Shown here piece by piece: positions 1,958-28,997 of a stretch of DNA of 64,000 nt (positions within the stretch are counted from its first letter, which is position 1; every line of letters starts with the position of its first letter). Position numbers and translations under genes: made by a program. Under the pieces are notes generated by a model. The model searched no databases. It worked only from the letters and a program-made list of their open reading frames with translations, and had not been told where the DNA came from. The stretch covers positions 186,001 through 250,000 of the forward strand of contig NZ_CALPCE010000002.1 of assembly GCF_943192945.1 (NCBI RefSeq). Reading direction: 5' to 3'. This stretch comes from Anaerocaecibacter muris (GTDB lineage Bacteria > Bacillota > Clostridia > Christensenellales > Pumilibacteraceae).

Positions 1958-1974
1958 TAGAAAAGGAATGCTTA

Positions 1975-2036
1975 TACCCCCCATCATTCCGAGCCTGTCG
2001 AGGAATCAAGGCGAACCGCCGCAGAAAGAGTATGCA
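1975..2036. repeat. Partial copy of the dispersed CATCATT-type intergenic repeat
   Basis: The sequence starts with CCCCCATCATTCCGAG and runs through a GAGGAATC and AAGGCGAACCGCCGCA block also seen at 19.4-20.2, 37.4-38.1, 48.6 and 57.5-58.2 kb. Only the left half is present; the closing AATGATGGG end is missing. It lies between the topoisomerase terminator and the lytic transglycosylase. The rest of the 1877-2113 gap is AT-rich and holds no gene I can support. Confidence 0.6.
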
Positions 2037-10863: not shown

Positions 10864-10915
10864 TCGATAAATTTTTCAAATTGACTTGACAACAAGGGGG
10901 GGGGGGGGGTATAAT
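10864..10915 (+). promoter_or_regulatory. Promoter with a 14-G run in the spacer; upstream 17-base element
   Basis: TCGATAAATTTTTCAAA (10864-10880), 5 nt, TTGACA (10886-10891), spacer ACAA plus 14 consecutive G (10896-10909, total 18 nt), then a perfect TATAAT (10910-10915). The G run fills most of the -35/-10 spacer, so slipped-strand changes of one or two G would move the spacer to 17 or 19 nt and alter promoter strength. The same 17-base element and a 12-G spacer occur at 20783-20833. The mRNA would have a leader of about 105 nt before the surface-protein start at 11028. Confidence 0.75.
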
Positions 10916-11027: not shown

Positions 11028-14000
11028 ATGGGACGGAAAATTCTGCTTGTACGCAAATTTACTTTGCTGTTTTTGTTATGCGCGCTTTTTGTCGTTGCGT
11101 TGTTGCCTATGGCGTTTTCGACGACTGCGCGCGCGGCGACAGAACACGGCGATTTTGACGTTAACCATTCAAACGCAATCGATCTAAACGCCGATGCGAC
11201 TATTACCGAATTGACGGACGGAAAGTCGTATTATTTGAGCGCGGATCTTACGCGTGACTTGACGATTGCCGTCGGCGCGTCGGTTAAGCTGTGTTTGAAC
11301 GGACACGTGTTAAGGGGCAGCGGCACTGCTGCCGTAATTGCGTTTGACGACAGTTGGGGTGCGGAGCTGTATCTTTACGACTGTCACCCGCAAACGGAAA
11401 ACAACGTTACATATTCGGTAAACGGCGAAACAAAAACCGTGACGATTACGGGCGGCGCGATTATAGGCGGCTCTTATTCGTGGGGCGGCGGTATTCAGGT
11501 TGCCGGCAATACTCTGCATATGTACGGCGGAACGATTGCGGGAAATTCGGCTACGGGCGAGGGCGCAAACAGCTACGGCGGCGGAATAAATCTCGGCAAC
11601 GGCTATATGTACATGTACGGCGGCGCGATTAAGGACAACTATTCCGCGGGATTCGGCGGCGGCGTGTCAGTCGGCGGCGGGGGCGGGTCGCGGTTTTATT
11701 TTTACGGCGGTACGATAGAGGGTAACTCCGCGGGCAGACAGGGCGGAGGTATCTACGTCGGCGATAACAGTTCCACGCTGGTAATAAGCGGCGCGGCGAA
11801 TTCCGATGTTATTAAGGTTTCGGGGAATACCGTCGGCATTATTGCCAACAACGTTCAACAGAATCCGCAGGGCGCGATAAGCATAGGCGGAAAGATTGCT
11901 GATGGCAGTAATATAGGTATAACTCTCGATTCGAGCGTTACCGCGTTCGGCAACGGGTTCGCTACTCACAATGCAGGAGTAAATCCCAACGACATTTTCA
12001 GTCTTGACAACACCGTCGGGTATGTTTGCAAAGACAACGGCGCGGGCGGCTTGACGTTTGTCGTCGCGCCCGTCATCAATATTCCCGCCAAGCTGGAATG
12101 GCAGATTATTCAAGCGGGTAGCGGCGCGGCATATCTCGAAAGCGGTCCCGTTTACGAATACACCGCGGACGGTCAAGTCGAATATTCGACGACCCCGCAA
12201 GCGGGCGCGCGGGAGATATCGGCGCGAAATTCCGTGACTTATTACACGGGCGCGAATATAGAAATAGGTTTGGTTTTGTCCGACATTATTCCCAACGAAT
12301 TTACCGCGTCGTATACCAAAGCGGGCGGCGGCGCGAGTAATGTTTATGCGTTTGCGGGCAAGCACGTTACTACTGTTACGCTTACGGCAAACGGCGAATA
12401 TGAATTTACTTGCGGTTATGCTACTGATGCGGCGCGCGGCATTAAAGTTACCGTAGCCGCGGACAAAAAGTCGGTAGTAATCGAAAAGACGTGGTTTATT
12501 ATAAGCAACAGGAGCGACGACACAAATGCGTTCCTTTCCGATCGTACAAGTCCTGCTTCGTCTTACGGCATTGTTCAGAGTTTTGCATTCGGCGTGGGCG
12601 AGTCGAGCTTTCCTATATTCGAGCCGCGACTGAAATACGGCGATGGGAGCGCGACGGTGCGGTATACCCTGTCGTCCGTAGATGAGAATAAAACGGAGAT
12701 AGCGGGCGCGCTCAATTTTACAAACTCCGACTTCGATCAGTATATTAACAATTCCATGCCGGCGGGGATATACACGCTTGTTGTAAAGGTTGACGCTGTT
12801 ACCGTGCCGGTAGGAACGAAACTTTGGTGGTCGTCGGACGACGTTGTTACGTCGGCGGAAATAGTAAGCCCCGAGTATCAGCGGACGTTTAGCTTTACCG
12901 TTACTCCCGCGAAAATAAATTTCGATCTTAAAAAGACGGATGAATTCGGCTATATACATTACGATTGGTGGTTGGCGGACGGCGCGGACAAAACGCAGAT
13001 GTTTGCCGAGTTCGAGAAGTTGGTCGCAGATAATGCGCCGTCCTTCCTTACGGTCGAGCGCAAGGGACAATGGGCTAATTCCGTTTGGGATAAGTATTAT
13101 TACAGCGACGAGCGCGACAATTACGAAATTTCGTACAACTTTGCGCGGCTGTACAACAACCGATACTATATGCCCGGTCAGCTCGTAAACAGCATAGGCG
13201 GCGGCACTAACGGAACTTATCGCGTGTATTTCCGAATTTCCGCGCCTGCGCATGCCGACTTCGGTACGGGCAACGACCGTTACGACTGTTATTTCACTGT
13301 TGACGTTTGGCAAAAGGTGGGCTTGCCGACCGATATTGTCAATCCTCAATTTACGGGAGGGCGGGTTACGCCCGTCGTGACGAGCGATACTCGGTACTCC
13401 GTCGAGTGGGACGCGGACGACGACTATATATCGGGCGGCGATCATTATTTTACGCTTAAACTGCTCGATTGCACGCACTATCGCTGGGCGGACGACGTCG
13501 TGACGAGCGGCGACAATGACGAGTGCGCGCGGGTTAAGTTTACAATCACCGCCGCTACCAACACGTGGTTGCGCACGCCTAATATTGTAGGCTGGGAATA
13601 CGGGTTCTATTCCAACGAGCGCAATTATATCGTTGCGATTCCGACTCACGGCGGCGCGTGGAACGTTAAGCTGTCTATCGAAAAGGACGAGAACGGCGCG
13701 CGCACGCCCGTCGTCGGGCTGGAAAACTTTACCGTTGACCAAAACGGGTACGTGTCCGAGGAAATAGAAAAGATTATATCCAAGCTCGGCTACGGCACGT
13801 ACTGGATTAACGCGGAAGTTGCCGGCACGTCCGACTATTCGGGGCTTGCCAAACAGAGCGCGTCGTTTACCGTTACGAAAACGGTCAACTACTGGACGAA
13901 GCCGCTGTCGATAGTCGCGTGGGCGGACGGCGAATATAATCCCAAGACCAACGTCATCAACGCCGAAGCGCACGTCGGCGAAACGCTTGTCGTCATTGTC

Positions 14001-15035
14001 GACGCAAAGACGGGCAAAGAGTATTACAACTCCGCTACGGGACTTAACAAACTTAAAGACGCGCCCGTAGGTTTGTATCGGTTGACCGCGACCGTCGAGG
14101 CGGGCGACAGCTATTCGGCTTTGAGCGATTCGGTGGAGTTTCGCGTTTTCGAGGCGGGCGGCATGGCGTGGTGGATAATTTTGCTCATCGTGCTGGGTGT
14201 GCTGTTGATTGTTTTTCTTGTGTTCTTTATACTGATTAAGAAGGGCGTGATCCAGTTGATGACCGAAAAGATGGTTGTCGCTATTCGCACCCGCGCGGAC
14301 ACCGACGCGACGATTGCGGCGGTACGTGCCGGCAAGGTTGCGGCGGAAGCCATGCGCGCGGCGGAGCTTGCCGCGGCGGCGTACACCGAGGAACCCGACC
14401 CCGCGTCCGACGAGGAGGAGGCTTTGCCCGAAGCGGACGACGAGCCGGAGGAGGAAAAGGTTTACGAGCCCGATGAGAACGACGTGGAAGTTCCGTCGTC
14501 GGGCGATTTCCAAAAGGTGTTCAGGGCGAACGCGACGGAACGTGTTTCTTACGGCAAGACCGTTTTGTCCAAACTGATAACCGCGCCCGACGTCGTCAAA
14601 AACAGATATTCGGAAATAAAGAACTATTTGTTGGCGTTCAAAAAGGCGCGCGCCAATATGAGCCGCGCCCGCGAGAGTTTTTATATAGGCAGGAAATGCT
14701 TTGCGCGTATAGCCATGCGCGGCAAAACTCTGTGTTTGTACTTGGCGCTCAACCCGACCGAGTATATAGAAAAATACAATGTCGAGGACGTTTTGTCCGT
14801 TAAGCTGTACGTCGATACGCCCTGCATGTTGCGTATACGCAGCGACAGAGCGGTGCGTCGAGCAAAGGCGCTTATCGACGAGCTGACCGCGAGCATTGGC
14901 GCGATTGCTATCGATCGCAAGCCCGAAAACTATGCGGAACTGTTTAAGAGTATAGAACAGCTCGAAAAGAAACGCTTGTTAAGCTATAACGGCAAAAAGC
15001 AAAAATCCACGTTTGATAATAGGAGAGGTGAATAG
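11028..15035 (+). CDS. Large membrane-anchored beta-helix surface protein with cytoplasmic domain
   Basis: A 1,335-residue exported protein of unknown function. The start at 11028 follows TGGAGGA; an upstream in-frame ATG at 10947 has no site and precedes no signal-like sequence. Residues 1-38 are a signal peptide ending in TARA. Residues about 130-270 carry glycine-rich right-handed beta-helix turns (GGTIAGNSA, GGAIKDNYS, GGTIEGNSA). A long Ig-like/unknown extracellular part follows, then one membrane helix at about 1046-1069 (WWIILLIVLGVLLIVFLVFF), a juxtamembrane DATIAAVRAGK segment, an acidic linker (EEEALPEADDEPEEEK), and a folded cytoplasmic domain (about 1160-1295) with RGKTLCLYLALNP. 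It is followed 1 nt later by the coiled-coil gene. A paralogue lies at 52944. Confidence 0.85.
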   Translation: MGRKILLVRKFTLLFLLCALFVVALLPMAFSTTARAATEHGDFDVNHSNAIDLNADATITELTDGKSYYLSADLTRDLTIAVGASVKLCLNGHVLRGSGTAAVIAFDDSWGAELYLYDCHPQTENNVTYSVNGETKTVTITGGAIIGGSYSWGGGIQVAGNTLHMYGGTIAGNSATGEGANSYGGGINLGNGYMYMYGGAIKDNYSAGFGGGVSVGGGGGSRFYFYGGTIEGNSAGRQGGGIYVGDNSSTLVISGAANSDVIKVSGNTVGIIANNVQQNPQGAISIGGKIADGSNIGITLDSSVTAFGNGFATHNAGVNPNDIFSLDNTVGYVCKDNGAGGLTFVVAPVINIPAKLEWQIIQAGSGAAYLESGPVYEYTADGQVEYSTTPQAGAREISARNSVTYYTGANIEIGLVLSDIIPNEFTASYTKAGGGASNVYAFAGKHVTTVTLTANGEYEFTCGYATDAARGIKVTVAADKKSVVIEKTWFIISNRSDDTNAFLSDRTSPASSYGIVQSFAFGVGESSFPIFEPRLKYGDGSATVRYTLSSVDENKTEIAGALNFTNSDFDQYINNSMPAGIYTLVVKVDAVTVPVGTKLWWSSDDVVTSAEIVSPEYQRTFSFTVTPAKINFDLKKTDEFGYIHYDWWLADGADKTQMFAEFEKLVADNAPSFLTVERKGQWANSVWDKYYYSDERDNYEISYNFARLYNNRYYMPGQLVNSIGGGTNGTYRVYFRISAPAHADFGTGNDRYDCYFTVDVWQKVGLPTDIVNPQFTGGRVTPVVTSDTRYSVEWDADDDYISGGDHYFTLKLLDCTHYRWADDVVTSGDNDECARVKFTITAATNTWLRTPNIVGWEYGFYSNERNYIVAIPTHGGAWNVKLSIEKDENGARTPVVGLENFTVDQNGYVSEEIEKIISKLGYGTYWINAEVAGTSDYSGLAKQSASFTVTKTVNYWTKPLSIVAWADGEYNPKTNVINAEAHVGETLVVIVDAKTGKEYYNSATGLNKLKDAPVGLYRLTATVEAGDSYSALSDSVEFRVFEAGGMAWWIILLIVLGVLLIVFLVFFILIKKGVIQLMTEKMVVAIRTRADTDATIAAVRAGKVAAEAMRAAELAAAAYTEEPDPASDEEEALPEADDEPEEEKVYEPDENDVEVPSSGDFQKVFRANATERVSYGKTVLSKLITAPDVVKNRYSEIKNYLLAFKKARANMSRARESFYIGRKCFARIAMRGKTLCLYLALNPTEYIEKYNVEDVLSVKLYVDTPCMLRIRSDRAVRRAKALIDELTASIGAIAIDRKPENYAELFKSIEQLEKKRLLSYNGKKQKSTFDNRRGE

Positions 15036-19254: not shown

Positions 19255-20240
19255 ACAGAGAGCCGAAATAGCCGATTGAGTTTTCGCACGATTAAATGCA
19301 TGCGTAAAGTCATGGCGCGTCGGTCGAAATGATGGGGGAAGATTAAGTGAATAAATAAGAGATAAAAGATAATAGTTGCGGAAGTTTTGCGTAAAGCAAA
19401 ACTTGATTTTAATATATAGAATAGAAATGGTTATATACTCATCATCCCGAGCAACGCCGAGGGATCCAGGCGAACCGCCGCAAAGAGGAAAAGCCGTTAC
19501 GTTTATCACATTAACGCAACGCATTTATTCGGGAGCAAACACAATAAACGGTCAAAATCTACACACGACAGAAATCCAAGCTGTGCTTGGTGCGGCTGAC
19601 GCCTTGATTTCTCCGCCAATCAAAGATTGGATTTTTTTCGTGTGTCTACTTTAATAGCCGATTGAGTTTTCGCCCGATTAAGTGCATGCGTAAAGTCATG
19701 GCGCGTCGGTCGAAATGATGGGAGGGGATTAAGATAATAAATAAGAGATAAAAGATAATAGTTGAAGAAGTTTTGCTCCGCGCAAAACTTGATTTTAATA
19801 TATAGGAAAGAAATGCTTATACTCTCATCATCCCGAGCAACGCCGAGGGATCCAGGCGAACCGCTGCAAAGAGGCAAAGACGTTACGTATATCACATTAA
19901 CACAACGCATTTATTCGGGTGCAAACACAATAAACGGTAAAAGTCCACACACGACAGAAATCCAAGCTGTGCTTGGTGCGGCTAACGCCTTGATTTCTCC
20001 GCCAATCACAGATTGGATTTATTTCGTGTGTTTACTTTAATAGCCGATTGAGTTTTCGCCCAATTAAGTGCATGCGTAAAGTCATGGCGTGTCGGTCGAA
20101 ATGATGGGGGGGGGGATTAAGATAATAAATAATAGATAAAAGATAATAGTTGCGGAAGTTTTGCGTAAAGCAAAACTTGATTTTAATATATAGAATAGAA
20201 ATGGTTATACACCTCATCATTCCGAGCTTGGCGTGTTGGT
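19255..20240. repeat. Three tandem units (two complete, one truncated) of a composite intergenic repeat
   Basis: Each full unit of roughly 400 bp contains GTCATGGCGCGTCGGTCG and AAATGATGGG, then AATAAGAGATAAAAGATAAT, a hairpin AAGTTTTGC...GCAAAACTTGATT, then CATCATCCCGAGCAACGCCG, an AGGCGAACCGC block, and the CACACGACAGAAATCCAAGC and CCTTGATTTCTCCG segments. Units begin near 19260, 19660 and 20040; the third breaks off near 20240. Frames open across these units are repeat-derived and no gene is supported. The hairpin could act as an additional terminator behind the rRNA unit. Confidence 0.75.
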
Positions 20241-20782: not shown

Positions 20783-20833
20783 TCGATAAATTTTTCAAAA
20801 CCTATTGACAGGGGGGGGGGGGTATGCTATAAT
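20783..20833 (+). promoter_or_regulatory. Promoter with a 12-G run in the spacer; shared 17-base element
   Basis: TCGATAAATTTTTCAAA (20783-20799) is identical to 10864-10880. After 5 nt comes TTGACA (20805-20810), a 17-nt spacer of 12 G (20811-20822) plus TATGC, and TATAAT (20828-20833). It drives the surface lipoprotein. Gain or loss of G would change the spacer from its optimal 17 nt. Confidence 0.78.
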
Positions 20834-22572: not shown

Positions 22573-23394
22573 TTAAACTTTAATATCGTGTTCTTCTGCT
22601 GTTGCTTGTACGCGGTTTATCGCCTTTAAAACGGCGTCGGTCGCGGCGGAGGCTTTGAGCGCAAACGATGCGTTTTCGAGTTTTACGGAGTTTTGCGTTA
22701 CTGCGCTGTCGTATATGAGTTTGGAAACCGTGATATAATTTTTGTCGCGGGGAATACCGCTTATATCGGTAAAGTCTCGTATCTGCACGACGCTGTCGAA
22801 ATACTTTTCGGCTTCGGCAACGCACTCGTCGGGCAAGCGGAATGTGAGTAAACTCACGTTGTCCGCGCCGAATTCGCGCTTGGCGGTTTGGCAAAGCGAC
22901 TTATAATTGTCGTTAATGCGGAAGAACAGAAAATCGTCGAACACGCAATCGACGGCGAGGACGGGCACGTATTTTGTATCGGCAAACTCTTTGAACTCGC
23001 GTTCTGTCAACGCGATTGCGATATACGCGTCGCACACGGCGTTACCGCGGCACGCGTCGGCATAGTCGATTATAGACAGGCTTATGTTTTGTCTGTTTAG
23101 CAGACGCGACAGCTCTGTCAACAGTTGCATATAGTACGGCGCGGCAATCGGCGAAACGTTATTGACGACGGCGGCAACGGTGTTGCTTTTACCTGTTGCG
23201 AGATACTTCGCCATGACGTTGCATTCGTAGCCCAAGAGGTTGGCGAACTGCAAAACTTTTTTGCGCGTGTCGTCGCTTATGGACTGACCCTGCGTATTGT
23301 TTAATACGTAAGACACCGTTGCGATAGACACATCCGCGGCTTTGGCTACATCCTTTATCGTCACCCTGCGATTGCGTTTGCTTTTGTTTTCCAT
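22573..23394 (-). CDS. LacI-family transcriptional repressor (maltodextrin locus)
   Basis: A 273-residue regulator with the LacI helix-turn-helix and hinge (VTIKDVAKAADVSIATVSYV, then RKKVLQFANLLGYECNVMAKYLATGKS). The periplasmic-binding-protein-like sensor starts with TVAAVVNNVSPIAAPYY. Total length is about 60 residues below the usual 330-340, so the ligand domain is shortened and divergent; whether it still binds a sugar is unclear. It is divergent from the GH13 gene and faces the lipoprotein gene, whose promoter carries a LacI-type palindrome. The mRNA should be leaderless. Confidence 0.9.
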   Translation of the reverse strand: MENKSKRNRRVTIKDVAKAADVSIATVSYVLNNTQGQSISDDTRKKVLQFANLLGYECNVMAKYLATGKSNTVAAVVNNVSPIAAPYYMQLLTELSRLLNRQNISLSIIDYADACRGNAVCDAYIAIALTEREFKEFADTKYVPVLAVDCVFDDFLFFRINDNYKSLCQTAKREFGADNVSLLTFRLPDECVAEAEKYFDSVVQIRDFTDISGIPRDKNYITVSKLIYDSAVTQNSVKLENASFALKASAATDAVLKAINRVQATAEEHDIKV

Positions 23395-23438: not shown

Positions 23439-25109
23439 ATGAATAAACACGCTTTATATCACAAATCGGACTCGCTGTTCAGCTTTGCGCTCGACGGGGA
23501 AACTGTGGAACTTCGGTTGCGCGCGGCGCGCGGCGAGGTGGCAAAAGTCGATCTTATTTACGGACAAAAGCATGCGTTTTGTCAAATGCGCAACACGCTC
23601 GCAATGTCGCTTTCGGCGTCCGACGGGCTGTTCGATTATTTTACGATTCGCTTTAAGCCGGAGGATAAACGCCTTGCTTACGTGTTTTTTATAACCGACA
23701 TGCAGGGCAAAACGTACTATTATTCGGAGGACGGCGCGACCGAGAAATACGATTTTTCGACGGCGTTCTATAACTTTTTTCAGCTCGCTTACGTCAACCG
23801 CAACGACGTTATGCCCAAGTGCGATTGGTTGAGCGGCGCGGTCGTTTATCAGATTTTCGTAGACCGTTTTCGGCGCGCACAGCCGCCCTGCGGCGGGCAA
23901 ACCGCAGAGGTCGATAAATCTTACATCAACCTCGATTGGGGCGGCAAACCCACGCCAAAGAGCTTTGCGGGCGGGAATATTTGGGGCGTTGTCGAAAAGC
24001 TCGATTATCTGTGCGATTTGGGCGTTAATACGCTGTACCTTACGCCGATATTTTCGTCGCGTTCCAACCACAAATACGACATCAGCGATTATTACAATGT
24101 TGACGCGCAGTTCGGCGGGAACGAGGCGTTTCGCGCGCTCACGGACGAGTGCAAGCGCAGGGGCGTGCGTGTCGTGCTGGACGCGGTGTTCAACCATTGC
24201 GGCGAGGAGTTAAAAGAGTTCCGCGACGTTGTGGAAAAAGGGCGCGCGTCCAAGTATCACGATTGGTTTATCATAAGCGGCGACAAGCCGACAAAGCGTC
24301 CGCTCAATTACGAGGTTTTTGCGTCGTGCGACTATATGCCCAAGTGGAACACAGCCAATCCCGAAGTGCAAGAGTATCTGTGCAAGATAGGCGAATACTG
24401 GATTAAGAATTACGGCATTGACGGTTGGCGGCTGGACGTGTCCGACGAGGTCAGTCACGAGTTTTGGCGCAAGTTTCGCTCGCGCATTAAGGCGTTGGGC
24501 AACGATAAGGTTTTGATAGGCGAAAACTGGCACGACAGCCGCAGTTATCTGCGCGGCGATCAGTTCGATTCTATCATGAACTACGCGTTCACCAAAGCCA
24601 TGCTCGATTATTTTGCTTACGGCGCGCTCTCGACGCAAGAGCTTTGCGACAAGCTCAACGAGCTTATGATGCGCAACATGACGCAGGTCAATTTTATGAT
24701 GTTGAACCTGATCGACAGTCACGACACGCACAGGTTTTACACCATGTGCGGCAAGGACGAAAACAAACTGCTTAACGCGCTTGCCGCAGAGTTGTTTATG
24801 CCGGGGGCTACAATGGTGTATTACGGCACCGAAATCCCGCTCGAAGGCGGATATGACCCCGACTGTCGCAGGTGTTTCGATTGGAGCGAACACGCGTTTA
24901 CCGACAAGGTAAAAGAGCTGCTTAAATACAAAAAGTTGCGCGCGCTTCACGAAGGCGACGTTAAGTTTACTTGCGAAAACGGATTGCTTGTTATAGAGCG
25001 CAAGACGAGCGGGCAGACCGCCGTGCTTTTGGTGAACAACACGGACAAAGCGTTGTCGGCGCGAGGTATAAACGTCGCCGCCAACGGTTACAAAATTACG
25101 GTTGAATAA
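23439..25109 (+). CDS. GH13 alpha-glucan hydrolase (neopullulanase/cyclomaltodextrinase type)
   Basis: A 556-residue cytoplasmic enzyme without a signal peptide, likely cleaving imported maltodextrins or branched fragments. An N-terminal beta domain (about residues 1-120, CBM34-like) precedes the (beta/alpha)8 barrel: AVVYQIFVDRF, LDYLCDLGVNTLYLTPIF, VLDAVFNHCG, then GWRLDVSDE with nucleophile Asp333, LIGENWH with acid/base Glu362, and LIDSHDTHR with Asp429. The N-domain and the DWGGKP segment favour the neopullulanase/maltogenic amylase subfamily; exact specificity is not readable. The start has a weak AAGG site. It is the first gene of the amylase-malE-malF-malG operon. Confidence 0.92.
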   Translation: MNKHALYHKSDSLFSFALDGETVELRLRAARGEVAKVDLIYGQKHAFCQMRNTLAMSLSASDGLFDYFTIRFKPEDKRLAYVFFITDMQGKTYYYSEDGATEKYDFSTAFYNFFQLAYVNRNDVMPKCDWLSGAVVYQIFVDRFRRAQPPCGGQTAEVDKSYINLDWGGKPTPKSFAGGNIWGVVEKLDYLCDLGVNTLYLTPIFSSRSNHKYDISDYYNVDAQFGGNEAFRALTDECKRRGVRVVLDAVFNHCGEELKEFRDVVEKGRASKYHDWFIISGDKPTKRPLNYEVFASCDYMPKWNTANPEVQEYLCKIGEYWIKNYGIDGWRLDVSDEVSHEFWRKFRSRIKALGNDKVLIGENWHDSRSYLRGDQFDSIMNYAFTKAMLDYFAYGALSTQELCDKLNELMMRNMTQVNFMMLNLIDSHDTHRFYTMCGKDENKLLNALAAELFMPGATMVYYGTEIPLEGGYDPDCRRCFDWSEHAFTDKVKELLKYKKLRALHEGDVKFTCENGLLVIERKTSGQTAVLLVNNTDKALSARGINVAANGYKITVE

Positions 25110-25131
25110 TTTATCAACGGAAAGGAGCGTT

Positions 25132-26640
25132 ATGAACAAACTTAAAAAGACATTAAGCGTAGCGCTGTGCGGCGTGCTGGGCGTATCGCTCGCGGCATGC
25201 AACGGCGGCAGTCGGCGCGAAAAGTACGCCGAACAGTCGCTTGCGGCGTTGTACGAAAAGTTCGAGGGCGATTTGGAGCGCGGCACGCCGTCGCGTCCGA
25301 TAACCTTGCATGTGCTCGAAAACGACACGGCGAAGCAGTCGGGCTATCTCAAACTTCTGCTCGACGGCTTTAACGAGAAGTACAAGGAATACAATATCGT
25401 CGCGGTTGACGCCAATCAGGATCAGTATTCCGACCTTGCCGAGAACGGTCCTTACGGTTACGGTCCCGACGTGCTGTATCAAGCTAACGACGTTCTTATG
25501 AAATACTGCAACGGCAAACACATAACGCCGTTGCCGATAGATAAGCTCGACGCGTATAACGAGCTTCCAGAACTTGCGAAAAAGACATACACCTATAATT
25601 ATAAAGGTACCGATTATTTTATGGGTGTGGGCGTCAATATTCAAGCGCCTATGATGTACTACCGCAAGGACTTGTTGCCGGATAACTGGGAGGACGAGTG
25701 GGACGAAAACAAAAACGGCATACCCGACATGCAAGAGGATATGCGCGCAATGTGGCGATTCGGCAAGGCGCGCAACGCCGCGAACAAGGACAAATACGGG
25801 TTTATGCAATCGCTATTCGATCCTTATTTTTCCTGCGGGTATTTGTTTACTTACGGCGCGTATGTATTTGGCAACGACAACACCGACACCAAGGATATAG
25901 GCTTCGATAACAAAGATTCCAGGCTGGGCGCGGGCGTGATTTTACAGCTTGCCGAAAGCATGAACATGGGCTGTATCGACGACAGTATTACGGTCGCGCG
26001 CGAGAGCGAGTTTGCCGCAGGCAATTATTTTGCCGTAAACAACACGCAGGACATGTACGGCACAATGGTTGACAATCTTGCCGCGGCGTATCGCAAACAG
26101 GGCATGACCGCTACGGCGGCGCAGGAGGCGGCAAAGGAGAACATAGTGTCCGCGTCGTTGCCCGCATTGCCTGCGTCGGGCGACCTGTCGGAGCGCGAGG
26201 GCGAACTTTTGGATTCCATTGTTATGGGCGGTATTAACGGTTATGCGATAAGTTCGTATACCAAGTATCCGCGGGCGAGCCTTGCGTTTTTGAATTATGC
26301 GACGGGATTTGAGATGACCGTCAAGCGCAACGAATATTTGGGCATTGCGCCCGCGCGCGAGGACTGCAACAAGGTGGTTACCGTTCAGGCGGATGTGGCG
26401 CATAGCCTGTTTGAAATGTCCGAACAAGGGCGCATTTCCATTATGCCTACGGTTAGCGGCGCGGACAGAATTTGGACGCCGTTGCAAACTTCTTTTACGG
26501 ATATTGCAACCGATCCGTACCGCACGGACGATAAAAAATACTACACGTCCGACGGACGAATCAATCATAACGCGCTCGACGCTTTGTTGAAAAATACCAA
26601 CTCCAACATTTATAAATCAATTCACACTTTTAACGGTTAG
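25132..26640 (+). CDS. Maltodextrin-type ABC transporter substrate-binding lipoprotein
   Basis: A 502-residue lipoprotein; the signal peptide ends in SLAAC (Cys at about residue 23). The mature part is a class-I/II solute-binding fold: ITLHVLENDTAKQSGYLKLL, DVLYQANDVL, ALPASGD and the C-terminal NEYLGIAPAREDC are typical of MalE/MdxE-like proteins. AAAGGAGCG sets the ATG at 25132. It is placed 22 nt after the amylase gene and 15 nt before the first permease gene, so it feeds sugar to that transporter. Maltodextrin as ligand is inferred from the neighbours. Confidence 0.9.
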   Translation: MNKLKKTLSVALCGVLGVSLAACNGGSRREKYAEQSLAALYEKFEGDLERGTPSRPITLHVLENDTAKQSGYLKLLLDGFNEKYKEYNIVAVDANQDQYSDLAENGPYGYGPDVLYQANDVLMKYCNGKHITPLPIDKLDAYNELPELAKKTYTYNYKGTDYFMGVGVNIQAPMMYYRKDLLPDNWEDEWDENKNGIPDMQEDMRAMWRFGKARNAANKDKYGFMQSLFDPYFSCGYLFTYGAYVFGNDNTDTKDIGFDNKDSRLGAGVILQLAESMNMGCIDDSITVARESEFAAGNYFAVNNTQDMYGTMVDNLAAAYRKQGMTATAAQEAAKENIVSASLPALPASGDLSEREGELLDSIVMGGINGYAISSYTKYPRASLAFLNYATGFEMTVKRNEYLGIAPAREDCNKVVTVQADVAHSLFEMSEQGRISIMPTVSGADRIWTPLQTSFTDIATDPYRTDDKKYYTSDGRINHNALDALLKNTNSNIYKSIHTFNG

Positions 26641-26655
26641 AATAAGGAGGTAAAA

Positions 26656-28104
26656 ATGGCAGAAAGCGGAATTTATCACGGCAAGCCGCCGCTCGGCACG
26701 CGGCTGGGGCAGTGGTTTAAAAACGTGCCCGTGCGGTTTAAAAACTTTTTTGCCGCGATAGGGCGGAAGTTTAAGCGTATTCCCGCGCGCATAGCCGATC
26801 GCGCGCATTATATCAAGACCGCGCCGCGATCCGTAAAGGCGTCCATGTGCCTTATGGGCGTGGGGCAAATCATGCAAAAGCAAATCGTCAAGGGCATACT
26901 GTTCCTGTTGATGTTTGCCGGTTACATAGTGTATATGGCGCTCGCGGGCGGAACGGCTATGTACGACTTCTTTTCGCTCGGCGTTGTGCCGCCCAACCCG
27001 TGGGTGGGCATAGAGGGCGACAACTCCGTCGTAATGATGTTGCTCGGCACGCTCGCGTTTATTATCACCGGATTTTTTATCTCGGTGCATTTGGCGAACA
27101 TACGCGACGCGCAGCGCACTCACGACTTTGTTGCGCGCGGCAATCCCACGCCCAAGTTTAGGCAGTCGCTCGCGAGCATGTTCGACAAATACTTTTATGT
27201 TACGGCGCTCGTTTTGCCCGTTGTCGGCGTGTTCGTGTTTAATATCCTGCCGATAATATTCATGATATTCTTGGCGTTTACCGATTACAGCGGGCAGATT
27301 GTTTTGTCGGGTTCGCTTGTAAGCTGGATAGGGTTCGCCAACTTTTCGCAGTTGTTCTCGACGGGGCTTATAGGCTCGACGTTTATAAAGATTTTGGGCT
27401 GGAACTTGTTGTGGGCGGTTATGTCCACTTTCCTCAACTACTTCGGCGGGCTTGCCATTGCGCTGTTGCTTAATAAAAAGATAGTCAAGGGCAAGCGGAT
27501 ATGGCGCGCGTTCCCTATACTCGCGTTTGCCGTTCCCGGGTTTATAACGCTGTTGGCGTTTAAGTTCATGTTTTCCAACCTCGGACCGATTAACTACTAT
27601 ATCGAAAATACTTTCGGCGGCACGGGACAGATGTTTTTCGGCATCGATTCCAAGTGGAGCGCGCGCACGATAGGGTGGTTGGTCAACGCGTGGCTGTCTA
27701 TCCCGTCGAGCATGCTCCTTGCGACGGGCATACTCGCCAACCTCAATCCCGACCTTTACGAAGCGGCGAGGATTGACGGCGCAAGCCCGTGGAAGCAGTT
27801 TATTAAAATAACCCTGCCGTTTGTTATCTTTGCGACTACGCCCGTGCTTATCGGTCAGTTTATGGGCAACTTCAATAACTTCGGCGTGTTCTACTTCCTG
27901 CGCGGCGGAATAATCTGCGACGGTTACTTCCTCGCAAGCGATACCGACCTGCTGATTAACTGGTTGTACAGCCTGTCTATCGACAATAAGTATTACTCGC
28001 TCGGCGCGGCGATAAGTATTATCATATTCGTAATTGCCGCAGTGATTTCCTTGATAGTGTATGTCAAATCCCCGTCGTATGCAAAGGAGGATATGTACAG
28101 ATGA
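26656..28104 (+). CDS. MalF-type sugar ABC permease
   Basis: A 482-residue integral membrane permease. A long N-terminal extension (about 180 residues, with amphipathic basic helices and two or three membrane segments) precedes the typical six-helix core. The coupling EAA motif reads YEAARIDGASPWKQFIKITLP at about residues 370-390, which contacts the ATPase. AAGGAGGT gives a strong start. Its stop overlaps the next start (ATGA). Extended N-termini are known in MalF/MdxF proteins. No ATP-binding subunit is in the operon, so a shared MsmX/MalK-type ATPase elsewhere must serve it. Confidence 0.92.
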   Translation: MAESGIYHGKPPLGTRLGQWFKNVPVRFKNFFAAIGRKFKRIPARIADRAHYIKTAPRSVKASMCLMGVGQIMQKQIVKGILFLLMFAGYIVYMALAGGTAMYDFFSLGVVPPNPWVGIEGDNSVVMMLLGTLAFIITGFFISVHLANIRDAQRTHDFVARGNPTPKFRQSLASMFDKYFYVTALVLPVVGVFVFNILPIIFMIFLAFTDYSGQIVLSGSLVSWIGFANFSQLFSTGLIGSTFIKILGWNLLWAVMSTFLNYFGGLAIALLLNKKIVKGKRIWRAFPILAFAVPGFITLLAFKFMFSNLGPINYYIENTFGGTGQMFFGIDSKWSARTIGWLVNAWLSIPSSMLLATGILANLNPDLYEAARIDGASPWKQFIKITLPFVIFATTPVLIGQFMGNFNNFGVFYFLRGGIICDGYFLASDTDLLINWLYSLSIDNKYYSLGAAISIIIFVIAAVISLIVYVKSPSYAKEDMYR

Positions 28105-28997
28105 GTTCAATTAGTAAAGCCGATAAGCTGATTAACAAGCAAATAAGAAAGTCGCGCACGGGCAGACGTTTTACCGTCAAAAAGTTTTGCGAATACTTTT
28201 TTACGTATTTGGCATTGCTTGTAATCGCGTTTATATTCGCGTTTCCCGTCATTTGGCTTATACTCGCGTCGTTTTCCGAAAGCGGATCGATGTACACTTT
28301 TAAAGGATTTTTTCCCAGTTCGTACAGTATAGAAACGTTTAAAAAGCTATTCACGGATACGAACATGTACGACTATCCGCAGTGGTTTTTGAACACGCTC
28401 ATTATTGCGGTGTCCTCCGCGGTGCTCGGCGGACTGCTCGTAATCCTTACCGCTTACGTCATGTCGCGGTTCAGATTCCCCGCGCGCAAGGGAATTATGA
28501 AGTTGACCATGGTGCTCGGCATGTTCCCTTCGTTTATGGCAATGACCGCCGTGTACCTGCTAATGACGCAGTTCGACATGATAAACAAGTTGTGGGGGTT
28601 GGTGCTCATTTACTCGGCCGGCGCGCCCATGGGCTACCTCACGCAAAAAGGATTCTTCGACACGATACCCAACTCCATGTACGAAGCGGCGAGGATTGAC
28701 GGCGCGAGTAATCTTAAAGTGTTTGTCAAGATAACATTGCCAATCGCTATGCCTATGATAGTTTACACCCTGATAACGTCGTTTACATGGCCGTGGTCGG
28801 ACTTTATACTGCCCAAGCTCCTGCTTAAAGACAAGGATATGTACACCGTGGCGGTTGGTCTTATGAGCCTCGGCGATACGGAATTCGCGCGGTTCGCCGC
28901 AGGGTCCGTGTTTATCGCGGTGCCGATTATAGTCCTGTATTTCTGCCTTGTCAAATACATGGTAAACGGACTTACGGCGGGCGCGGTCAAAGAGTAA
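28101..28997 (+). CDS. MalG-type sugar ABC permease
   Basis: A 298-residue permease with six membrane helices; the first is at about residues 28-50. The EAA loop is YEAARIDGASNLKVFVKITLP. The start codon overlaps the malF-like stop by 4 nt, showing translational coupling. The C-terminus YMVNGLTAGAVKE is the standard end of MalG/MdxG proteins. A strong terminator closes the operon about 30 nt downstream. Confidence 0.93.
   Translation: MSSISKADKLINKQIRKSRTGRRFTVKKFCEYFFTYLALLVIAFIFAFPVIWLILASFSESGSMYTFKGFFPSSYSIETFKKLFTDTNMYDYPQWFLNTLIIAVSSAVLGGLLVILTAYVMSRFRFPARKGIMKLTMVLGMFPSFMAMTAVYLLMTQFDMINKLWGLVLIYSAGAPMGYLTQKGFFDTIPNSMYEAARIDGASNLKVFVKITLPIAMPMIVYTLITSFTWPWSDFILPKLLLKDKDMYTVAVGLMSLGDTEFARFAAGSVFIAVPIIVLYFCLVKYMVNGLTAGAVKE

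Follow-up and report, generated by a model that had tools for sequence, protein, structure and literature searches.

Long runs of G lie between the −35 and −10 boxes of promoters at many loci of Anaerocaecibacter muris and related gut Clostridia, and the comparative evidence makes it probable that these tracts are transcriptional phase-variation switches of the kind known from porA and fetA of Neisseria. Two such promoters lie in the stretch analysed here (the window), 64,000 nucleotides (nt) of contig NZ_CALPCE010000002.1. The first precedes a lipoprotein gene and has TTGACA followed directly by 12 G and TATGC, which gives a spacer of 17 nt before TATAAT, and the second precedes the gene of a predicted secreted protein, where ACAA and 14 G make up a spacer of 18 nt. 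In both, the same A/T-rich 17-mer, TCGATAAATTTTTCAAA, ends exactly 5 nt before TTGACA. A preliminary description of this DNA had reported the first promoter (20783 to 20833) with its 12 G, 17-nt spacer and upstream 17-mer, together with the identical 17-mer at the same distance from TTGACA in the second, and the sequence agrees with it exactly in both respects. The homopolymers are thus placed between the two boxes as in porA/fetA-type phase variation, the hexamers are near consensus, and the spacers are near 17 nt; in the family, spacer lengths have a broad distribution that peaks at 16–17. Runs of at least nine G gave 13 match positions in the window versus 0.19 expected, far over chance. 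Predicted DNA folds across the window G tracts were weak (z +1.79 and −1.22), giving no sign of a hairpin there.

Poly-G spacers in the genome, the family and the order

In the A. muris genome that holds the window (1,970,454 bases in 12 contigs, 95.7% complete), we counted by eye 29 runs of at least nine G or C, each at a separate position. Eight of them sit in promoter spacers; all eight are 12 to 14 long, and they account for 8 of the 14 runs that reach 12. Seven of these promoters carry G12 to G14 between TTGACA and the −10 box and the eighth carries C12, while one relative has up to 13 listed places. The arrangement was then searched for as TTGACN{1,6}G9+N{0,12}TANNNT, with the reversed pattern as a control and places counted by eye. 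In the Pumilibacter family (Pumilibacteraceae, Clostridia, at NCBI) 37 of 74 genomes, from 11 of 18 genera, had the pattern, versus a single match of the reversed control; with C in place of G it was found in 12 of 74 genomes, at 14 places (control, 2 matches). Coding-strand G tracts are much commoner than C tracts in the promoters of the family. In three species, small membrane-protein genes that seem to be related have poly-C-spacer promoters, with C12, C10 and C9 (L244, L245 and L249).

Across the order, the pattern was present in 69 of 396 genomes, belonging to 24 of 142 genera, and the control gave nothing. These matches divide into 19 of the 33 sampled family members and 50 of the 363 genomes of other families, being concentrated in families f1, f15, f20, f29 and f3 with single genomes elsewhere; in f4, f11, f17 and f32 no match was seen when the table was read by eye. 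A scan of named genomes returned at least 119 stretches, including some from Pumilibacter intestinalis, Pumilibacter muris and unrelated lineages; P. intestinalis CLA-AA-M10 has at least four matching places.

One family genome, G028, has at least 10 such promoters, and five of its called genes share one common lipoprotein N-terminus. Each of these five paralogous genes is preceded by a separate promoter in which a G9 or G10 tract lies in a spacer of 17 or 18 nt. The repeated gene probably forms a multi-copy family whose promoters could be switched one by one. Contigs C34, C45, C46, C48 and C50 of this assembly end shortly after, or begin at, G-run promoters of the repeated gene.

Spacer lengths, target genes and the proposed switch

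Among the matches listed, which hardly sample the genomes after G049, 107 distinct G-run promoters of the family have spacers ranging from 12 to 23 nt. When only exact TTGACA and TATAAT boxes are considered, the G-run spacers still range from 14 to 23 nt, with 11 of 29 at 16–18 nt. By contrast, 67 of 72 spacers of ordinary A. muris promoters, drawn from 69 loci of the genome plus the window out of 127 promoter matches, fall at 16–18 nt and 55 of them at exactly 17 (Fisher p 1.6e-8). Where several −10 boxes matched equally well, the one giving the spacer nearest 17 was preferred; this rule favours spacers near 17 and therefore works against the observed difference.

The promoter of an ABC ATPase gene (C6:138948) allowed one locus to be followed between species. 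Orthologues of this gene were found in 17 genomes including A. muris, all within the genus. In nine of the genomes the promoter has TTGAC followed by G9 to G15, with spacers of 17, 21, 15, 22, 20, 19, 20, 18 and 22 nt; for G009 the gene and the promoter are on separate contigs and were linked via similar sequence after the −10 box. The gene of G010 has G10 before its −10 box and no clear −35 box, and those of G005, G006 and G007 have ordinary promoters without a run (spacers 18, 17 and 18). No clear promoter appeared within the 230 nt read for G001 and G014, and the orthologues of G002 and G011 are truncated at contig ends. As read from one assembly per species, the position of the tract is kept at this promoter, while the length of the tract and the distance between the boxes change between species.

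The genes behind the promoters were sorted into exported and lipoprotein classes by a heuristic of hydropathy and lipobox. Rows in which it called no open reading frame were dropped (20 of 107 G-run and 20 of 72 background promoters), as were 9 of the remaining 87 G-run rows whose first 10 residues were repeated. In the resulting non-redundant set of listed matches, exported or membrane proteins are predicted behind 62 of 78 G-run promoters versus 24 of 52 ordinary ones (p 1.3e-4), and lipoproteins behind 23 of 78 versus 4 of 52 (p 0.004). Pfam matches in 72 target proteins included ABC ATPases (6), GH3 C-terminal domains (6), List_Bact repeats (5), LytTR response regulators (5) and BspA-type leucine-rich repeats (4).

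We propose that each G tract would be a contingency locus within a sigma-70-type promoter. Replication slippage would add or remove G residues and thereby shift the distance between the −35 and −10 boxes, with spacers of 16–18 nt corresponding to the on state, in which both window promoters would currently be, and shorter or longer ones to a weak or off state. Many promoters of the family would be switched independently of each other, chiefly those in front of genes for lipoproteins and further exported or membrane proteins, for ABC transporters and for LytTR regulators. Recurrence throughout the family, scatter of the spacers, length variation between species at the ABC promoter and the bias of the target genes together give this model strong comparative support.

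Several observations weigh against it. Differences in length between species would fit slow change too, and short-read assemblies may give tract lengths incorrectly. All background promoters are from the A. muris genome, the G-run set from the family. The −10 box is ambiguous at the ABC promoter of G000 (spacer 17 or 21) and at another spacer-tract promoter of A. muris (C2:43369), and the ABC gene of G003 has an additional ordinary promoter, TTGACA-17-TATAAT, farther upstream. Lipoproteins and single-signal proteins taken together are not significantly enriched (37 of 78 versus 16 of 52, p 0.07), so the target bias rests on lipoproteins and multi-pass membrane proteins. Finally, MutL is present in A. 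muris and in 64 of the 74 family genomes; there is therefore no obvious repair defect, and loss of mismatch repair as the cause of the tracts is not supported.

Passive expansion, in which slippage lengthens G runs in unconstrained sequence and spacers merely tolerate them without selection for switching, survives best among the other explanations, and we regard it as unlikely. It is consistent with the 21 of 29 long runs of the A. muris genome that lie outside promoter spacers and with the tracts of a non-promoter intergenic repeat, whose 42 copies in the genome parts compared have between 1 and 12 G. However, the runs are concentrated right behind TTGAC with a reversed control near zero, more than half of the A. 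muris runs of 12 or longer are within spacers, C tracts are far rarer than G tracts (12 versus 37 of 74 genomes) and the target genes are biased. The ABC orthologues, moreover, keep their −35 and −10 boxes at abnormal spacings.

A static role, by which the tract would be a fixed feature of DNA shape or protein binding (stiff or A-form-like DNA, a G-quadruplex or an activator site) with no switching by length, seems improbable to us. The preference for G on the coding strand would suit such a role, and an effect on DNA conformation has been proposed for the poly-G tract overlapping the −10 box of Treponema pallidum tprL (PMC7864442). Yet neither tract length nor total spacing is conserved at orthologous promoters, and the eight orthologues of the window lipoprotein promoter have no tract at all.

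The 17-mer shared by the two window promoters

The preliminary description had interpreted the two window promoters as a regulon with one UP element or activator site plus a slippage switch. Of this interpretation, the switch gains comparative support, as described above, whereas the 17-mer does not behave as the mark of a regulon. An exact copy occurs nowhere in the 1.97-Mb genome besides the two window sites, and the 17-mer is present in only 2 of the 8 spacer-tract promoters of A. muris, none of the six outside the window having it. The single site with one mismatch (C3:114430, L007) is followed after 16 nt by a promoter that has no G run, TTTACA-17-TATAAT. All three sites with no more than one mismatch thus precede a promoter, unlike the random scatter without promoters that the preliminary description had named as grounds for rejection. 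Seven of the eight sites with two mismatches are inside open frames of 320–961 codons, and the eighth overlies the −35 box of a different promoter, which points the other way; the reversed 17-mer pattern had no match in the whole genome. Allowing up to three mismatches gave 5 matches in the window versus 0.51 expected. The 17-mer is also the longest word shared among 164 promoter-like upstream regions of the genome (13,366 pairs), followed by two words of 16 nt, one of them of low complexity. Duplication of a longer segment around it was rejected, as identity ends at the edges of the 17-mer.

A core search was made in the family for ATTTTTCAAA placed 3–7 nt before TTGAC with a −10-like box behind, places again being counted by eye. 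It returned 43 promoter-like places, spread over 34 of 74 genomes, versus 3 matches of the reversed control; 38 of the places have no G run. Of the five that do, two are the window promoters and the others belong to G040, G043 and G047, one to each. Since only these 5 of 43 core sites have a G run, the 17-mer is probably a general UP-like element and no special mark of a regulon. The A/T-rich element is shared by otherwise ordinary promoters, as a UP element would be; a site both common among the G-run promoters and specific to them was not found.

The sigma-70 UP element has an A/T-rich consensus laid out as AAA, T tract and AAA directly upstream of the −35 box. The 17-mer has the same layout near −35 and may accordingly strengthen the promoter separately from the switch. 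It differs in that AAATTTTTCAAA stands 16–17 nt before the −35 box at two further A. muris promoters, both without a G run; any binding of the alpha subunit is putative. Upstream regions of G-run promoters are not enriched in A+T (0.647, n=101) compared with ordinary ones (0.651, n=28; p 0.74).

That one activator binds the 17-mer and jointly controls the slippage-prone promoters is therefore a very improbable reading, even though an identical word at an identical distance before two G-run promoters, with no further exact copy, would be expected from it. Besides the six spacer-tract promoters without the 17-mer, the family core sites without a run, the displaced AAATTTTTCAAA and the equal A+T content, the eight lipoprotein orthologues also use a promoter without a G run. 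Some association of the core with G-run promoters is possible: both A. muris hits of ATTTTTCAAA have G runs, in a small sample selected because of G runs, as do the three promoters of other genomes named above. An origin of the tracts as poly-G read tails in sequencing or assembly has a negligible probability despite a C-rich homopolymer stretch at the start of contig C5 of G009 and many G-run promoters near contig ends in G028, as the tracts are internal, have boxes on both sides, and recur in independent assemblies, at orthologous positions and in a cultured isolate.

Genes behind the promoters, other G runs and related systems

The lipoprotein gene has eight orthologues in the genus (36–58% identity), and all eight promoters consist of TTGACA, a spacer of 16 (six) or 17 nt (two) and TATAAT, with no G run in any spacer. 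An A/T-rich element precedes TTGACA in the six orthologues whose upstream sequence was read. Because all eight have spacers of 16–17 nt without a G run, the tract is best explained as having arisen in the A. muris promoter, where it would have replaced the spacer at a working length. Just behind the −10 box is the palindrome TTAAACGTTTAA, which follows the −10 box in seven of the eight orthologous promoters and has a diverged form in the eighth (L096). Genes for a LacI-family regulator, an alpha-amylase family protein and an ABC transporter lie downstream (Table 1), so the palindrome is probably an operator of the LacI type. The switch at 20.8 kb would thus act together with it, and the lipoprotein of this starch locus would therefore be both sugar-regulated and stochastic. 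A starch-binding role of the lipoprotein is merely suggested, because its SusF_N and List_Bact_rpt matches are below the curated cut-offs. A G040 promoter (L082) nearly identical to the lipoprotein promoter was rejected as its orthologue because the next gene with a clear ribosome-binding site begins some 460 nt farther on, and the protein it encodes is like that of L339 and unlike the lipoprotein. For the second window gene, the closest orthologue (L106, 44%) has an ordinary promoter with neither 17-mer nor G run.

As read from sequence, the targets of the six spacer-tract promoters outside the window are lipoproteins of 614 and 1129 residues, a secreted or anchored protein of 167, a protein of 362 with an N-terminal hydrophobic segment, a membrane protein of 222 and the ABC ATPase.

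Table 1. Promoter parts and genes in the window, and spacer-tract promoters elsewhere in the A. muris genome (contig:position)
Feature	Position	Strand	Remark
17-mer TCGATAAATTTTTCAAA, UP-like A/T element, lipoprotein promoter	20783..20799	+
−35 box TTGACA, lipoprotein promoter	20805..20810	+
G12 tract, lipoprotein promoter	20811..20822	+	proposed slippage switch
−10 box TATAAT, lipoprotein promoter	20828..20833	+
Palindrome TTAAACGTTTAA	20838..20849	+	probable LacI-family operator; kept in 7/8 orthologous promoters
Lipoprotein gene, 519 residues	20916..22475	+	weak SusF_N and List_Bact_rpt matches
LacI-family regulator gene	22573..23394	−
Alpha-amylase family gene	23439..25109	+
ABC transporter genes	25102..28997	+	solute-binding protein and two permeases
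17-mer TCGATAAATTTTTCAAA, UP-like element, secreted-protein promoter	10864..10880	+
−35 box TTGACA, secreted-protein promoter	10886..10891	+
G14 tract, secreted-protein promoter	10896..10909	+
−10 box TATAAT, secreted-protein promoter	10910..10915	+
Gene of 1335-residue protein	11028..15035	+	N-terminal export-signal-like segment; no Pfam match
Spacer-tract promoter	C1:21142		TTGACAA-G13
Spacer-tract promoter	C2:43369		TTGACA-G13; −10 ambiguous, spacer 16 or 21
Spacer-tract promoter	C2:94537		TTGACA-G13
Spacer-tract promoter	C6:138948		TTGACAA-G13; ABC ATPase gene behind
Spacer-tract promoter	C11:10998		TTGACA-G14
Spacer-tract promoter	C2:13105	other strand	C12 version

Other long runs have different settings. 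A G15 run (L050 2083–2097, C6:21.6 kb) lies outside the spacer, 8 nt upstream of a TTGAAA-17-TATTAT promoter whose gene is LacI-like by sequence resemblance, without a Pfam call. The intergenic repeat, with core TCGAAATGATGGG / TCGGAATGATGGG, occurs in the window at 20106–20115 and at about 1968–1992 (minus strand) and in L046, L048, L055 and L061, and copies lying within 500 nt in L048 have G6, G12, G6 and G7. Also in the A. muris genome (G000), at C3:88412 (L047 3413–3422, minus strand; L406), the signal peptide of a lipoprotein (GAMTGGGLVAC) contains an in-frame G10 run that is likely a translational slippage site, and in L055 (3281–3289) a C9 run on the coding strand, read by eye, comes immediately behind the lipobox of a further putative lipoprotein. 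A 2.7-kb segment (L052 3229–3645 and 5852–5866, C6:46.2–48.9 kb) holds four long G runs that are apparently coding, in what is possibly a mobile element.

Promoter switching by simple repeats has been described mainly in Gram-negative pathogens and spirochaetes. A literature search for such promoters in Pumilibacter or Clostridia, judged by titles and the beginnings of abstracts, found none. In Neisseria, poly-G lies between the boxes of porA, whose transcription is abolished once the 17-nt spacing is reduced, and poly-C between −35 and −10 alters the expression of fetA (PMC7864442, PMC5320596). The promoters described here resemble these in having a homopolymer between the boxes, the length of which sets the spacing (17 nt being the porA optimum), in front of surface-protein genes. 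They differ in belonging to Clostridia, in their many loci per genome and in a G tract that often starts straight after TTGACA. The comparison is made on sequence, while length changes inside a clone and their effect on transcription are predicted. Treponema pallidum likewise has poly-G tracts in promoters of several putative surface-protein loci, tpr and tp0126; the tprL tract, however, is described as covering part of the −10 box, whereas those reported here are strictly between the boxes (PMC7864442). In Bifidobacterium breve, also a Gram-positive gut commensal, G-tract slippage controls a surface structure, the sortase-pilus, by a tract that is intragenic rather than in a promoter spacer (PMC9187656).

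The mechanism is thus already known from porA and fetA, and what is remarkable is the lineage and the number of loci. We lean slightly towards the view that the whole Pumilibacter family and several other families of the order carry independently slipping poly-G-spacer promoters genome-wide, which would amount to bet-hedging on a pathogen-like scale in commensal Firmicutes. Such promoters would diversify lipoproteins, glycoside hydrolases, leucine-rich-repeat proteins, ABC transporters and LytTR regulators, and one of the switches, in a starch locus, would be superimposed on a LacI operator. The switch is directly testable, because such promoters are present in named strains, Pumilibacter intestinalis and P. 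muris. If it operates as proposed, many surface functions in little-studied gut Clostridia would be decided by chance in each cell, which would help account for strain-level heterogeneity that gene content does not explain.
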